Origin: Idiomarina tyrosinivorans
GTDB taxonomy: Bacteria; Pseudomonadota; Gammaproteobacteria; Enterobacterales; Alteromonadaceae
Assembly (NCBI RefSeq): GCF_003987475.1
Contig: NZ_PIQH01000011.1
Span: forward strand, 1 to 54,880
DNA length: 54,880 bases
Reading direction: 5' to 3'
This document shows, piece by piece, positions 1-54,709 of this stretch (the stretch's first letter is position 1; every line of letters begins with the position of its first letter). Below the pieces are notes generated by a model, which was not told the DNA's origin, searched no databases, and was given only the letters and a program-made list of their open reading frames with translations. Made by a program: the position numbers and the translations under genes.

Positions 1-30
1 TGAATCGCGTAGCGCGCGGCTGAGAGACAT

Positions 31-67
31 AAAAAAACTCCAGTGACAGTTACTATCACTGGAGTTT
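31..67 (-). terminator. Rho-independent terminator, minus strand
   Basis: A perfect 10-bp stem (37-46 with 56-65, arms ACTCCAGTGA and TCACTGGAGT) with a 9-base loop. Read on the minus strand it is followed by seven U residues (A31-A37 on the plus strand), the classic intrinsic terminator form. On the plus strand only a short T run follows, so it may work weakly there for an upstream gene outside the window. It lies on the far side of the repeat region from the minus-strand genes ending at 969, so it could end their transcript. Confidence 0.8.
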
Positions 68-333
68 GACAGCTCCACTTGATCGGTCAATGGATCGCTA
101 AATTATTTCTTAACTGATCAGCATTGCGCCTAAGCGCGGGCTTTTTTGTGCCTGCTTATGCTTTACTGCGGCTGTTAGCTTGGGCTCGCGGCATCGTCAG
201 GGTTGAGGGAAGGCTCGGGGTTGCTTGTTCTCTACCACGACGATTAGCTTGGGTACGTCGGCATCGTGAGGGGCTGGAGGGCGCTTGGTGTGTAGACGCT
301 CAGAGGGTCATTGCACGGCACCCCGCCGGTTCA

Positions 334-422
334 CGAAGCTGGGGAAAAAGCCGCTCAAGCTCATCCATGAGGCGCTTAGTCTCCGGCCGTCCATGGCCGG
401 AGATACTTTTTCCCCAGCTTCG
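334..422 (+). repeat. Three-stem structured element, copy 1
   Basis: The outer stem pairs 334-350 with 406-422 (17 bp, containing AAGCTGGGGAAAAAG). Inside it are two smaller hairpins. Arm 1 is CTCAT-CC-ATGAG at 360-371. Arm 2 is CTCCGGCC at 381-388 pairing with GGCCGGAG at 395-402 around a 6-base loop. The fold is therefore a three-way junction. A second, inverted copy at 694-772 keeps the fold with different but still paired bases. I do not recognise the family. Confidence 0.75.
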
Positions 423-693
423 CGCCCCAACGTTGTGCGTTAAATGTGGGAGAAGTCGCGCCTACACCCCAAGCTTAGGGCTACGGAGAAGCGATGCCGA
501 TGCAACACCGAGCGCGCCGTGCCAGAGAACAATCAACCCCAAGCAGGCTGTCTGAAGCTAACCGATAAAGGCTGATACTTCTTTACTGCGGCTTTCCGCG
601 ATGGCGGGCGGCATCGCTTCTCCGCACCTATTTGGCTCGGGGTGTGGGCGCGTTTTCCTCGATATTGATTAGCGTCTCGTTGGGGCGCGGGGG

Positions 694-772
694 CTCCGGT
701 AAAAAGCATCTCTGGCCAGGGAGGGCCAGAGACTGAGCGGCCATGGATGGCTCGAGCGTCTTTTTACCGGAG
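694..772 (-). repeat. Three-stem structured element, copy 2 (inverted)
   Basis: The outer stem pairs CTCCGGTAAAAAG at 694-706 with its exact complement at 760-772. Arm 2 is CTCTGGCC at 710-717 with GGCCAGAG at 724-731. Arm 1 is GCCAT-GG-ATGGC at 740-751. Read on the minus strand it aligns along its length with the element at 334-422, and the differences in all three stems are matched by complementary changes. The flanking CGTTGGGGCGCG (678-689) mirrors the flank of copy 1. Confidence 0.75.
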
Positions 773-968
773 ACACCGTGAACCAGCGGGACGCTGAGCA
801 CTCACCACCCTAGCGCCCACGCCCCGAGCCTTCCCCCCAAACCTGACGATGCCGCGGGCCGTAGCCATAGGCCGCAGTAAAGAATTGCCGACCAACCCAA
901 GCTCATCGCCGTGGTAGAGAACAACCAAGCCCGAGCCTGATGATGCCAAGAGCTCGAGCTTAGGCCGA

Positions 969-1388
969 TCACTTTATGGTGGTGATTTCGATGCCGAGTG
1001 TTTTGGCTTGTTCTTCTGTTTCTGCTGAGGTTAATACGGCCACTTGTTGGGGTCTTGGTAGGTCGGGGTCGTAAACCCAGAGGGTGGCTAATTCTTCGTC
1101 TACTTCGCGTTGCAAAATCAGGCGTTCGGGCTTTACTTCTCGTGGTGCTAGCAAAAAGCGTTGTAGTGTTAGGGTTTCGCCGTTCCAACTGGCGACTTTT
1201 TGTAATGGTCGGAACTTCAATACGATGGCGACAAATATCAGCATGGTGATCAATACGCCACCGGCAATCCATAGCAAGGGTACTTGGCCGCCAATATATA
1301 TGGCCATCCATAATGCGAGAAAAAAGCCGCCCCACAACTGTGGTCGACGGCTGTCTCGATAAAATACTAATTCAGCGTTAGAATTCAT
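969..1388 (-). CDS. Uncharacterised inner-membrane protein, two TM segments
   Basis: A 139-residue protein that I do not recognise. The start chosen is the ATG at 1388, which overlaps the stop of the acyl-CoA dehydrogenase by 11 bases and implies translational coupling. A longer frame beginning at 1436 would run further into that gene. Residues about 18-55 form two closely spaced hydrophobic segments (a WGGFFLALWMAIYI-type helix and a LLWIAGGVLITMLIF-type helix). The rest is a soluble, probably beta-rich domain with alternating hydrophobic residues. Two helices followed by a beta domain recall bacterial PH-like membrane proteins, but that is only a structural impression. It is the last gene before the repeat region. 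Confidence 0.6.
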   Translation of the reverse strand: MNSNAELVFYRDSRRPQLWGGFFLALWMAIYIGGQVPLLWIAGGVLITMLIFVAIVLKFRPLQKVASWNGETLTLQRFLLAPREVKPERLILQREVDEELATLWVYDPDLPRPQQVAVLTSAETEEQAKTLGIEITTIK

Positions 1389-6709: not shown

Positions 6710-7503
6710 ACCATCAGCAGGATCAGCACTAACCCCAAAGCCAAGCGGTAAAGCACAAACGGTAGCATCCCCATACGTTCAATAACGCGCATGAACAGCG
6801 CAATCACTAAGTAAGCGCTCACTGCCGAAACCACGATTCCGGTGACCAAAAAGCCCCAATGAATCACTTCATCGGAACGGACTAATTTAGCCCCTTCATA
6901 AACGCCGGCCATTAAGATAACTGGTATCGACATTAAAAACGAAAAACGCGCCGCTTGTTCACGACCCAAGCCTAACCACAAACCCGCTGTCATGGTAATA
7001 CCCGAACGTGATGTTCCGGGAATTAAGGCGATTGCCTGTGCGACACCAATAATAAGCGCCTGCTTCACGGTAAGTTGCGCCAATGTCTGTTGTTGTTGCG
7101 CATAACGCCGATCAGCCCACCATAGCAGTATCCCAAATGCAATGGTGGTCGTTGCGATCACTGCCGTCGAGCGCAGTGAAGCCTCAATAACGTCGGCGAA
7201 CAACAACCCAGCAATTACTGCTGGCACCGTTGCCCAGATAATTAACCAAGCCATACGACTATCGCTACCATGCTGGCCGCTAAACGATTGCAACCAACCG
7301 CGCAGTAACTCCCATACGGTTTGCTTAAAGTACCAAACCACGGCAATCAGGGTGCCAACATGAACCGCTACGTCAAACGCCAAGCCCTGATCGGCCCAAC
7401 CCAGTAATTGTGAGGGCAGAATTAAGTGGGCCGAACTGGAAATTGGCAAAAACTCTGTTAATCCTTGAATTAGCGCCAGAAAAATAGCTTCAATATACGT
7501 CAT
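6706..7503 (-). CDS. uppP: Undecaprenyl-diphosphatase UppP/BacA
   Basis: An integral membrane phosphatase of 265 residues that recycles undecaprenyl diphosphate to the monophosphate carrier for peptidoglycan and polysaccharide synthesis; overproduction in E. coli gives bacitracin resistance. The N-terminal [18 protein letters not shown] box and the later PGTSRSG motif are the catalytic signatures. About seven or eight hydrophobic helices are visible. It overlaps folK by 14 bases upstream, so it is probably the last gene of a folB-folK-uppP unit. The cca/uppP convergence matches the E. coli neighbourhood. Confidence 0.95.
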
Positions 7504-8032
7504 TTACGATTACCTTAAGATCAGGATGAGCTAGCCAGTCTTCCTTGGTTAGCGGGGCGAGTTGTTGGTCTTGCATCGGACTCTGACGGCTTAACTGCCG
7601 CCAAAGTTCTGCGAACGACTGTTGCCGTTGTGGATGAATAGCCATCGGCGCAAGCTCTGCTAATGGCTGCAGTACAAAAGCGTTGTGTAATATTTCGTCA
7701 CGCGGTAACTGGGGCTTGCTCGCATTGACCTCTTCACCCACTAACAGCATATCAATATCGAGTGTTCGGGGACTGTACTTGGGGTCGCTATCGTGGCGCC
7801 CATGCTCTGCTTCGATGGCTTTGCAGTAGCGCAATAGTTCGGCTACGCCCAAATCACTCTGGAACTGCACCACCAAGTTATAAAACGGGCTACCGGCGAA
7901 ACCAACCGCGGCACTTTCGAACACCCGCGAGCGTCGCAATGGACCAAATTGTGCGATCAGCGAGAGCAAGCCAGCGCGCAAATGCTGTTGCCGCTCAACG
8001 TTACTGCCTAAACCTAAAAAAATCTCTCGCAT
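7490..8032 (-). CDS. folK: 2-amino-4-hydroxy-6-hydroxymethyldihydropteridine pyrophosphokinase
   Basis: Transfers pyrophosphate from ATP to hydroxymethyldihydropterin in folate synthesis. The family pattern is clear: FLGLGSN at the N-terminus, then FYNLVVQ, and [12 protein letters not shown] with the metal-binding aspartates, followed by [16 protein letters not shown] chose the ATG at 8032 (180 residues); a GTG lies one codon earlier at 8035. The gene begins only a few bases after the folB stop. folB and folK here catalyse consecutive pathway steps and sit side by side. Confidence 0.93.
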
Positions 8033-8036
8033 CACA

Positions 8037-8405
8037 TTATTTGCCTGTAGCGGCGAAATCTCGATAAATCTCTACCGCGATATTTTTCGCTTGTGCTACA
8101 GCTCCAGGCTTAGCCACTTTTACCTTCACCCACAGCACCGCAAATTGTTGATGAAGTTCCGTAGCAATGCCTTCAGCCACTTGTTCTATCAGCTCACGCG
8201 GTTGACCGCTAACCCATGCACTAACGTGCCGACTGACCGCGTCATAATCGAGCGCATCGGCGATGTCATCACTGTTGCCAGGAATACTGTTGTCCCAGCC
8301 CATATGCAGCGTCACATAAAGCCGTTGCTGTTGCGTCTTTTCCCAATCAAACACGCCGATAATGGTGTCAATTGCCAAGTCTTCAATGATCACGCAATCT
8401 GTCAT
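8037..8405 (-). CDS. folB: Dihydroneopterin aldolase
   Basis: Converts dihydroneopterin to 6-hydroxymethyldihydropterin and glycolaldehyde, supplying the substrate of FolK. A single T-fold domain with IIGVFDWE near the N-terminus, the DALDYDAVSRHV segment, the ELIEQVAEGIA helix and the closing VKVAKPGAVAQAKNIAVEI strand. The start at 8405 gives 122 residues, the length of E. coli FolB, and has GGAAAG seven bases upstream; an in-frame ATG at 8417 is less well placed. It is transcribed divergently from plsY. Confidence 0.92.
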   Translation of the reverse strand: MTDCVIIEDLAIDTIIGVFDWEKTQQQRLYVTLHMGWDNSIPGNSDDIADALDYDAVSRHVSAWVSGQPRELIEQVAEGIATELHQQFAVLWVKVKVAKPGAVAQAKNIAVEIYRDFAATGK

Positions 8406-8421
8406 TTTGCTTTCCATTCGC

Positions 8422-8483
8422 GCTCGCCCGTAGTAATTCCGCGTTAAACCTCTTATGCTTAATAGGCGGAAGTGATGGCGAGC
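8422..8483. promoter_or_regulatory. Nested inverted repeat between folB and plsY
   Basis: Two nested perfect pairs lie in this divergent intergenic region: GCTCGCC (8422-8428) with GGCGAGC (8477-8483), and TTCCGC (8437-8442) with GCGGAA (8466-8471). No U tract follows on either strand, so it is not an intrinsic terminator. It could be an operator pair or an RNA hairpin. I cannot assign a regulator. Confidence 0.4.
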
Positions 8484-8529
8484 ATACTACCCCAAATAAA
8501 ACACCTATGTTAAGAGCGAATTATCAGGC

Positions 8530-9174
8530 ATGCCAGCGTTAACCTTATTAATGATCCTAGTCGCCTATTTAGTCGGCTCAATATCCAGTGCGGTACTGAT
8601 TTGCCGAATCTGGGGTCTGCCTGATCCACGCCACTCGGGTTCACAAAATCCTGGTGCCACCAACGTTTACCGTATTGGTGGACGCTGGCCTGCGCTGTTG
8701 ACCCTTGTCTTCGATGTGCTAAAAGGTATGGTCCCTGTGTGGGGCTCATATTATCTCGGTATCAACGCCTTTTATCTCGGCTTGATCGCTGTCGCTGCCT
8801 GTTTGGGGCACATTTTTCCGCTCTACTTCAAGTTTCGCGGCGGCAAAGCAGTGGCCACCGCGCTCGGAGCTATGTTTCCTATCGCTTGGGAAATGGCTTT
8901 GTTACTTATCATCACCTGGTATGCAGTGTTCCGCATTAGCCGAGTGTCCTCGTTAGCCGCCTTAGTTACGGTAAGTTTGGCGCCGTTCTACGCACATTGG
9001 ATAAAGCCCCAATACACGCTACCAGTGATCATGATCTCACTGCTTATTTTATGGCGCCACCAAGCCAATATTCTGCGACTCGCGTCTGGTAAAGAGAGCA
9101 ACTTTAAGCGTTCCACTAAGGTCGCTAAGCCAACGCCGGAAGATCCGCCAAAGGCCAACGGGGATAAGTCTTAA
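8530..9174 (+). CDS. plsY: Acyl-phosphate:glycerol-3-phosphate acyltransferase
   Basis: An integral membrane enzyme that makes lysophosphatidic acid from acyl-phosphate, the first step of phospholipid synthesis. The family motifs are present in order: LVGSISSA in the first helix, the [16 protein letters not shown] phosphate loop near residue 37, and [15 protein letters not shown] near residue 97. About five TM helices are visible in 214 residues. The C-terminal tail after ESNFKR is Lys/Pro-rich and its last 50 bases overlap the 3' end of tsaD on the opposite strand. Confidence 0.95.
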
Positions 9175-10141
9175 TCGCCAAGTCCGTCGATTGCCCCGCT
9201 TGCAACCGCAGCGCTCCAGCTAACGCAATCATTGCACCGTTATCGGTACAGAACGCTGGACGAGGATAAAACACTTCACCACCACGTTTTTGCACGGCGC
9301 TTTGCAATTGCTCACGTAAACGCACGTTCGCACTAACTCCGCCAGCAATTACCAAACGTTTTCGACCACATTGCTTTAACGCTCGTTGGCACTTAATCAC
9401 CAGCGTATCAACCACCGCTTGCTCGAAAGCCAAGGCAACATCAGCAAGACTCTGTTGGTCAGTACCCGCTTTCGCCAATGTATTTGCGGTAAAGGTTTTT
9501 AATCCGCTAAAACTAAAATCTAAGCCAGGACGGTCAGTCATCGGGCGCGGAAATTGGTAGCCTACGTCTTTACCCTGTTGCGCCAACTTCGCTAATCGTG
9601 GCCCGCCGGGATAATCTAAGCCCATCAATTTCGCCGTTTTGTCGAACGCTTCACCGGCGGCATCATCCAGCGACTCACCAAGCAATTGGTATTGACCAAT
9701 GCCTTGCACATCGACCAACTGCGTATGTCCGCCAGAAACCAATAACGCGATAAACGGAAATTGCGGTTGCGGGGTTTCCAACATGGGTGCTAACAGGTGC
9801 CCTTCCATATGATGTACGGCAATTGCTGGCTTGTCCCAACCGTACGCCAAGCTGCGACCTAAGCACGCCCCTACCAGTAATGCTCCCACCAGACCAGGTC
9901 CGGCGGTATAGGCCACGCCATCGATGTCGTCACTGCTAAGTTGCGCTTGCTTGAACACTTCGTGAATGAGGGGAATCGACTTACGCACATGATCGCGTGA
10001 CGCCAACTCTGGAACCACGCCGCCATAATCCGCATGCAGTTTTACTTGCGAATATAACGTATGGCCGAGAAGCCCATTTTCGGTGTCATAAATGGCGACA
10101 CCGGTTTCATCACAGGAAGTTTCGATACCTAGAACACGCAT
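9125..10141 (-). CDS. tsaD: tRNA N6-threonylcarbamoyladenosine synthase subunit TsaD
   Basis: The catalytic subunit that transfers the threonylcarbamoyl group to A37 of ANN-decoding tRNAs. The start at 10141 gives [16 protein letters not shown], the exact family N-terminus; the frame upstream to 10252 is not supported. The metal-binding histidines appear in HHMEGHL near residue 111, [12 protein letters not shown] follows, and the ASKH-fold segments [13 protein letters not shown] and [10 protein letters not shown] are intact. 338 residues is normal. Its neighbour plsY is also its neighbour in E. coli, but the rpsU-dnaG-rpoD block that often lies on the other side is absent. Confidence 0.96.
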
Positions 10142-54082: not shown

Positions 54083-54688
54083 GCCGTAGCCCGTTGCTAA
54101 GCCGTAGCCTGTTGCTATGCCGTAGCCTGTTGCTATTGCAACAGGAATTCCGTGATGTTCGGGATTGTCGATGTTCGGGGATCAGAGATCGGGAAAGGCG
54201 GTGGGTGATGTCGATGTCCTGCCGCGGTAGCGGCAGGCTACGGCACGGGGATCCCGCGATCCAGACGTAGCCTGTTGCTATTGCAACAGGAATTCCGTGA
54301 TGTTCGGAGATCAGAGATCGGGGAAGCGGGACGTGATGTCGATGTCCTGCCGCGGTAGCGGCAGGCTACCGCACGGGGCCGCGATCCAGCCGTAGCCTGT
54401 TGCTATCGCAACAGGAATTCCGCGATGTTCGGGATTGTCGATGTTCGGGGATCAGAGATCGGGGAGGCGGCGGGTGATGTCGATGTCCTGCCGCGGTAGC
54501 GGCAGGCTACCGCACTGGAATTCCGCGGTTCAGCCGTAGCCTGTTGCTATTGCAACAGGAATTCCGCGATGTTTGGGGGTTTGCGATGTTTGGGGGTTTG
54601 CGATGTCCGGGATTGTCGATGTTCGGAGATCAGAGATCGGGGAAGCGGCGGGTGATGTCGATGTCCTGCCGCGGTAGCGGCAGGCTAC
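54083..54688. repeat. Array of paired GTAG-type REP palindromes (BIME-like)
   Basis: Four tandem units of 125-155 bases begin at 54121, 54266, 54391 and 54535. Each contains two inverted REP elements. Type A is a GTAG head plus stem CCTGTTGC, loop TATT, stem GCAACAGG (54122-54145, 54267-54290, 54392-54415 with loop TATC, 54536-54559). Type B is the inverse orientation with stem CCTGCCGC and GCGGCAGG and a CTAC tail (54218-54241, 54346-54369, 54487-54510, 54665-54688). Two truncated heads lie at 54083 and 54101 with 18-base spacing. Sequence between elements is also conserved. No RAYT transposase is present. Confidence 0.85.
54566..54599 (+). repeat. 17-base tandem duplication in the fourth REP unit
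   Basis: GCGATGTTTGGGGGTTT occurs twice in a row (54566-54582 and 54583-54599), followed by a third, degenerate start (GCGATGTCC). It explains the extra length of the fourth unit. Confidence 0.8.
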
Positions 54689-54709
54689 GTAGGACACTGG
54701 CCATAAAAT

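Follow-up and report, generated by a model that had tools for sequence, protein, structure and literature searches.

TwoAYGGAY (Rfam RF01731, clan CL00106 together with rsmX), an RNA motif known since 2010 and still an orphan, is the closest counterpart of the repeats described here. Both consist of two hairpins with ANGGAN loops in a poorly conserved outer stem, and both occur in several copies per genome. TwoAYGGAY was classed as probably an RNA and as not cis-regulatory (PMC2864571), and CsrA binding was proposed for it from motif matches, with a remark on tandem GA in a stem (PMC4333381). The hexaloop of RsmE has the form ANGGAN, with N variable (PMC7652899). Hairpins with A(N)GGA loops are also present in CsrA sponge RNAs of the CsrB/RsmZ type, which are dedicated sRNA genes with promoters, whereas the modules found in Idiomarina carry two sites each, are dispersed, and yielded no promoter in a simple scan of two composites. 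CsrA sponge sRNAs have been described in Alteromonas (Aln1a-c, all in one 404-nt spacer; PMC5864184) and in Pseudoalteromonas (Pf1, with 21 GGA; PMC9927453).

A second comparison is with MITEs and REPINs, which like the Idiomarina repeats are short, non-coding, dispersed inverted composites; one Idiomarina composite also contains an IS110-family insertion. The Idiomarina elements differ from these in their three-way RNA fold and strand-specific selection, in showing no link with Y1 transposases, and in that no target duplications were seen by eye. QMITE1 of Coxiella provides a precedent for MITE-derived sRNAs, and the word CsrA is absent from the excerpted text of that paper (PMC5896051). A literature search, mostly of titles and listings, found no description of dispersed or mobile TwoAYGGAY-like elements.

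The window (the whole stretch of DNA analysed, 54,880 nucleotides of contig NZ_PIQH01000011.1 of Idiomarina tyrosinivorans) contains two three-way elements within a larger repeated block (Table 1). An earlier note on this DNA had reported two inverted copies of a three-stem element, and the named stems and their pairing are present in both copies. Read on the plus and minus strand, respectively, the right and left elements align end to end and through both hairpins, and in each the two hairpins, with AYGGAY/ANGGAN loops, lie inside one outer stem. The folds stand out against dinucleotide shuffles (z of −6.42 for the left element and −4.90 for the right), with none of 200 shuffles equally stable in either case. 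Taken together, the comparisons below are best read as describing a multi-copy, MITE-like relative of TwoAYGGAY that carries putative CsrA-binding twin hairpins.

Table 1. Positions of the elements and of the surrounding block in the window.
Feature	Positions	Strand	Remarks
Composite block, roughly palindromic, repeated	130–960 (edges approximate)		Based on 17 aligned copies from a search of the genome
Terminator tail GCGGGCTTTTTTGTGCCTG (19 nt)	136–154	+	Left edge of block; 10 of 11 genome occurrences beside an element copy
Left element with long outer stem	313–443	−	TwoAYGGAY match 29.6 bits (cut-off 43); stems with G.U 3, A.C 0
Left three-way element	335–421	−	Outer stem 335–350/406–421, 16 bp; model R1 match 339–417
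Left hairpin 2	360–371	−	Loop 363–368, ATGGAT on minus strand
Left hairpin 1	380–403	−	Loop 389–394, ATGGAC on minus strand
Composite centre between elements	422–689		No promoter-like site in simple scan
Right element with long outer stem	667–799	+	TwoAYGGAY match 25.7 bits (cut-off 43); stems with G.U 5, A.C 0
Right three-way element	694–772	+	Outer stem 694–706/760–772; model R1 match 695–771
Right hairpin 1	709–732	+	Loop 718–723, AGGGAG
Right hairpin 2	740–751	+	Loop 743–748, ATGGAT

The elements are widespread in the genus. The covariance-model search proposed in the earlier note recovered further copies with covariation in 14 of 19 Idiomarina genomes: model R1, built from four sequences and run with E up to 0.5 and at most 150 candidates scored per genome, gave at least 239 matches, with 8–32 per bearing genome and no match in the remaining five genomes among the matches listed. 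In other species the fold recurs with a very dissimilar outer stem, and a second model, R2, detected the fold in 123 of the 295 genomes searched from the family, spread over 23 of 52 genera (16 candidates scored per genome). One family genome (G277) contains a tandem array of eleven same-strand copies with a period of 141 bp (L207:366-1907), which starts 2 bp past a gene that we take to be thymidylate synthase from the resemblance of its ending; the GGA strand of the array is opposite to both flanking genes.

At its curated cut-offs, Rfam detects only a 5S rRNA in the window, and no known family for the elements. The earlier note had recognized no named family either, a view that is revised here, as TwoAYGGAY is recognizable in both window elements, though under its cut-off. 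Searched below that cut-off (E up to 1), RF01731 has matches in exactly those 14 genus genomes, out of 19, in which R1 has them; the best reaches 40.0 bits, and the gathering score of 43 bits is attained in none of the 19. Other Rfam names that appeared at loose thresholds (microRNA, sRNA), apart from TwoAYGGAY and rsmX, are taken as chance matches to the long stem. Beyond the overall fold, the elements share with TwoAYGGAY (compared by eye) an AAG linker and a GCGT before the closing strand, both near-invariant in our alignment A3, and a mostly 3′-end location (TwoAYGGAY proper: 19 convergent, 19 tandem and 1 divergent spacers, n=39). They differ in their shorter hairpin 2 and in their arrangement, since outward facing is not the rule in TwoAYGGAY, where close neighbours face outward in three of eight cases, inward in one and the same way in four (12 + 20 loci). 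R2 gave only two weak matches on 12 TwoAYGGAY loci. With 9 candidates scored per genome, TwoAYGGAY proper exceeds its cut-off in 65 of the 295 genomes searched from the order, frequently more than once per genome. Because they score below the RF01731 cut-off, we file the Idiomarina elements as a sister branch that would work alike, and not as members of RF01731. The tandem GA is found in a stem of 9 of 215 elements by one strict pattern.

The loops are near-invariant except at the free N and are of the published CsrA/RsmE hexaloop type, closed by C-G. Two exact C[ANGGAN]G loops are present in 195 of 215 elements, as against 3 of 10,750 base-shuffled cores, and 27 of 46 elements of TwoAYGGAY proper pass a strict two-loop rule. 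In the genus alignment (the best 150 of 170 matches, reduced to 136 distinct rows), loop 1 has A in 135 rows, a free N, then G in 135, G in 136 and A in 136, and loop 2 has A in 135, a free N, then G in 134, G in 135 and A in 136; the first N of the ANGGAN loops varies (T 222, G 103, A 45, C 38). Of 34 rows from other genera, 29 have two full C[ANGGAN]G loops and five have a shortened or altered loop. All 19 genus genomes contain a CsrA gene, and the CsrA of I. tyrosinivorans shares 53 of 59 aligned residues, including 47 of the first 48, with its closest homologue of solved structure. As a separate observation, two or more csrA genes are present in all five element-free genus genomes and in 5 of 14 element-bearing ones (Fisher p=0.03, kinship ignored).

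The outer helix varies freely in sequence and is kept paired. Across the 136 genus rows, 97.3% of cells are paired, and both partners have changed at all 12 pairs. The covariation score is 0.763, compared with 0.202 when shuffled and at most 0.149 when slid, and in three other genera (34 distinct rows) it is 0.814, compared with 0.186 shuffled and at most 0.154 slid. Counts of two-sided-change pairs (genus: 22 vs 20.1 shuffled, with 14 of 500 shuffles reaching 22) and of further pair types (68 vs 68.2, no excess) stand out less, as do those in the other genera (21 vs 18.2 and 58 vs 53.2, respectively). Alignments fitted to a model favour pairing in the modelled stem, and tests of the RNA strand therefore matter more.

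A DNA palindrome is expected to gather G.T and A.C mismatches equally, whereas G.U is tolerated in an RNA fold, on the strand that forms it. Read on the GGA strand, 174 distinct elements of the genus contain 553 G.U and 216 A.C in their outer stems and 31 and 5, respectively, in their hairpins; in the other genera the outer stems contain 91 and 55 and the hairpins 8 and 0. The excess extends beyond the modelled region (494 G.U vs 211 A.C in the genus; 80 vs 55 in the other genera), where G.U is higher in 83 of 117 clusters formed at 90% identity, lower in 18 and tied in 16, the clusters being not fully independent. It is also found among departures from the cluster consensus (71 G.U vs 36 A.C, p=0.0009, at 90%; 87 vs 44, p=0.0002, at 85%), and is smaller in the youngest clusters (26 vs 15, p=0.12, at 95%). 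When 40-nt flanks are included, folding is more stable for the GGA strand than for the complementary one in 150 of 174 elements of the genus and 34 of 37 from other genera. The same holds for both window elements and, in two sets picked by models that themselves favour G.U, for bare cores of the genus (114 of 159) and TwoAYGGAY matches (41 of 46). The excess of G.U over A.C on the GGA strand means that selection sees an RNA, namely that of the GGA strand. The earlier note had left RNA and single-stranded DNA side by side in proposing selection on the fold; the selection is strongly supported, and the strand asymmetry tells the two apart. Neither an absence of covarying copies elsewhere nor stems that decay independently, which the note had named as grounds for giving up its proposal, was found. 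None of the results speaks for a chromosome-structure site, another of the note's suggestions.

Compensatory changes go on within close clusters, which argues against the elements being fossil repeats, that is, drifting debris of an ancestral RNA function. The uneven copy number within one genus (0–32 matches per genome, among the matches listed) is what such debris might produce, but the spread of model matches over 23 genera of the family, the retention of the loops in 17 loci of three other genera, and their retention in a recent amplification in I. tyrosinivorans make this reading very improbable.

The position of the elements relative to genes was examined with gene calls from a simple longest-ORF script, not from annotation. 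The genus statistics on lone copies, cluster contexts and neighbour pairs exclude copies of the I. tyrosinivorans genome, and the spacer comparison adds the window itself. The 117 element clusters in genus loci lie in 61 convergent, 56 tandem and no divergent spacers. Element-holding spacers (n=114) are convergent in 59 cases, tandem in 55 and divergent in none, compared with 24, 119 and 37 for element-less spacers at the same loci. In tandem spacers the core lies at a median of 46 nt past the stop and 124 nt ahead of the next start. In I. tyrosinivorans, nine of ten complete copies with both neighbours known sit between convergent genes.

This placement would suit a structured RNA of gene 3′ ends (a bidirectional terminator, stabilizer or processing site, ERIC- or BIME-like) whose GGA loops serve another RNA-binding protein or none. 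A scan of window positions 1–1000 found eight terminator-like sites, compared with 0.9 in shuffles, two of which are the hairpin 1 structures of the elements as read from the non-GGA strand. We nevertheless consider this reading quite unlikely, as a near-invariant ANGGA with a free N in both loops is needless for termination, the composite in locus L088 has no terminator-like site, and an intrinsic terminator already precedes several copies in I. tyrosinivorans. Where an element stands alone in a tandem spacer, it is sense in 9 cases and antisense in 11, and the absence of a strand preference counts against a simple 3′-UTR role. In TwoAYGGAY proper, with tandem arrays counted singly, 5 are sense and 14 antisense in tandem spacers. 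With lone elements and TwoAYGGAY proper so often antisense, a transcript extending past the end of the upstream gene would in many cases not be the GGA strand. Outward transcription from a promoter at the composite centre was considered and dropped, as the scan found no promoter-like site there; two composites scanned had none. At one locus, a relative (G013) has a terminator alone where I. tyrosinivorans has the terminator plus an element.

Close neighbours in the genus (51 pairs, at most 350 bp apart) face outward in 48 cases and inward in none, and 22 same-genome composite pairs match across 278–349 bp at 71–91% identity. In I. tyrosinivorans the composite block is about 700 bp long, with outer parts that differ among copies. 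A whole-block query (110-980) found 12 complete copies including that of the window, and five partial or contig-end copies. The copies are 94–97% alike across a 501-nt core (nine others scored) and 88–94% alike across the whole block. A 116-nt query with the left element gave 19 matches, 15 at 99–100% identity and four at 78–80%, the latter falling on right-type elements. The 501-nt core has no match longer than 47 nt in 59 relatives, and both 47-nt matches are complete three-way elements with unrelated outer stems. The composite has thus clearly amplified recently in this genome and is absent from the 59 relatives. Plasmids, phages and viral contigs searched with one 431-bp composite and one exact pattern gave no match. 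Protein-coding content was dropped as an explanation, because ORFs within copies vary in strand, frame and length, and integron attC sites were dropped by eye, because base-of-stem boxes are inconsistent and the sites are dispersed.

The block has the MITE trait of a non-coding multi-copy unit with inverted ends. The earlier suggestion of a non-autonomous mobile element is supported for the composite as a whole, whose copies are alike as units and form outward pairs, though no mechanism was found. A mobile palindrome acting solely as DNA (MITE- or REPIN-like) would explain the hairpins as single-stranded recognition sites of a transposase and the compensatory changes as products of palindrome repair or template switching. 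The likeness of composites as whole units within genomes, their outward inverted arrangement, the lack of strand preference relative to genes, and an IS110-family transposase within one composite are all consistent with this. It is, however, unlikely, as G.T and A.C should then fare alike, contrary to the G.U excess on one strand, and no target-site duplication was seen by eye at 13 composites. A Y1 transposase (Y1_Tnp, RAYT) gene is present in 7 of 14 element-bearing and in 4 of 5 element-free genomes, and a RAYT/REPIN origin is rejected.

On balance, we think it probable that the elements are transcribed CsrA docking modules with twin hairpins, paired outward in a MITE-like composite at gene 3′ ends. 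The GGA strand of each element would encode an RNA module, with two C[ANGGAN]G hairpins enclosed by a long outer stem whose sequence is free. One CsrA dimer would clamp both loops, as proposed for TwoAYGGAY RNAs and as in the paired hairpins of RsmZ/CsrB. If so, each transcribed copy would be a CsrA docking site, which may act as a decoy or as a cis-acting 3′-end element. Two outward modules form a composite that has multiplied as a unit, in MITE-like fashion, and sits at gene 3′ ends, in I. tyrosinivorans often beside terminators.

The layout of outward pairs, 3′ ends and whole-unit copies suggests that a mobile element can carry putative binding sites for a global regulator. A bolder extension, which we put forward as a doubtful possibility, is that a selfish or domesticated mobile element bears the outward pair of putative CsrA-binding modules, that its copy number sets or disturbs the level of free CsrA, that csrA paralogs co-evolve with it, and that TwoAYGGAY RNAs of other families include further mobile elements of this kind. 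Spread to gene 3′ ends would then multiply CsrA docking sites. With at least 239 matches in one genus and strand-resolved selection on RNA, the elements provide a large relative of the orphan TwoAYGGAY, so that harmless marine bacteria can serve to test the orphan motif as well as the notion of a mobile regulator trap.

Some composites enclose ORFs between their outward-facing elements (L118:1516-2553, L111:1656-2686 and 7222-9778, L122:6209-7934). These include a Phd/YefM-like antitoxin (below the Pfam cut-off) beside a toxin-like ORF without Pfam match, an antitoxin-like ORF without Pfam match, a HipA gene and the IS110-family transposase. The region at about 1640-2240 of L118 has no counterpart in the related loci L104 and L105. 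In the window, the composite's variable outer arms, at 158-263 and 834-938, are built of nested repeats with units of some 50 bp, TTCTTTACTGCGGC... and GTTCTCTACCACGGCGA.... Contigs C2, C16, C20 and C21 of the same assembly start within composite copies. The stretch at 110-150 recurs at about bases 110-150 of contigs C1, C4, C5 and C18, so that these contigs may break at the same repeat. At the other end of the window, which is also an end of the contig, the 5S rRNA gene has beside it, at 54400-54700, repeated short hairpins starting GTAGCCTG... that look REP-like on inspection.
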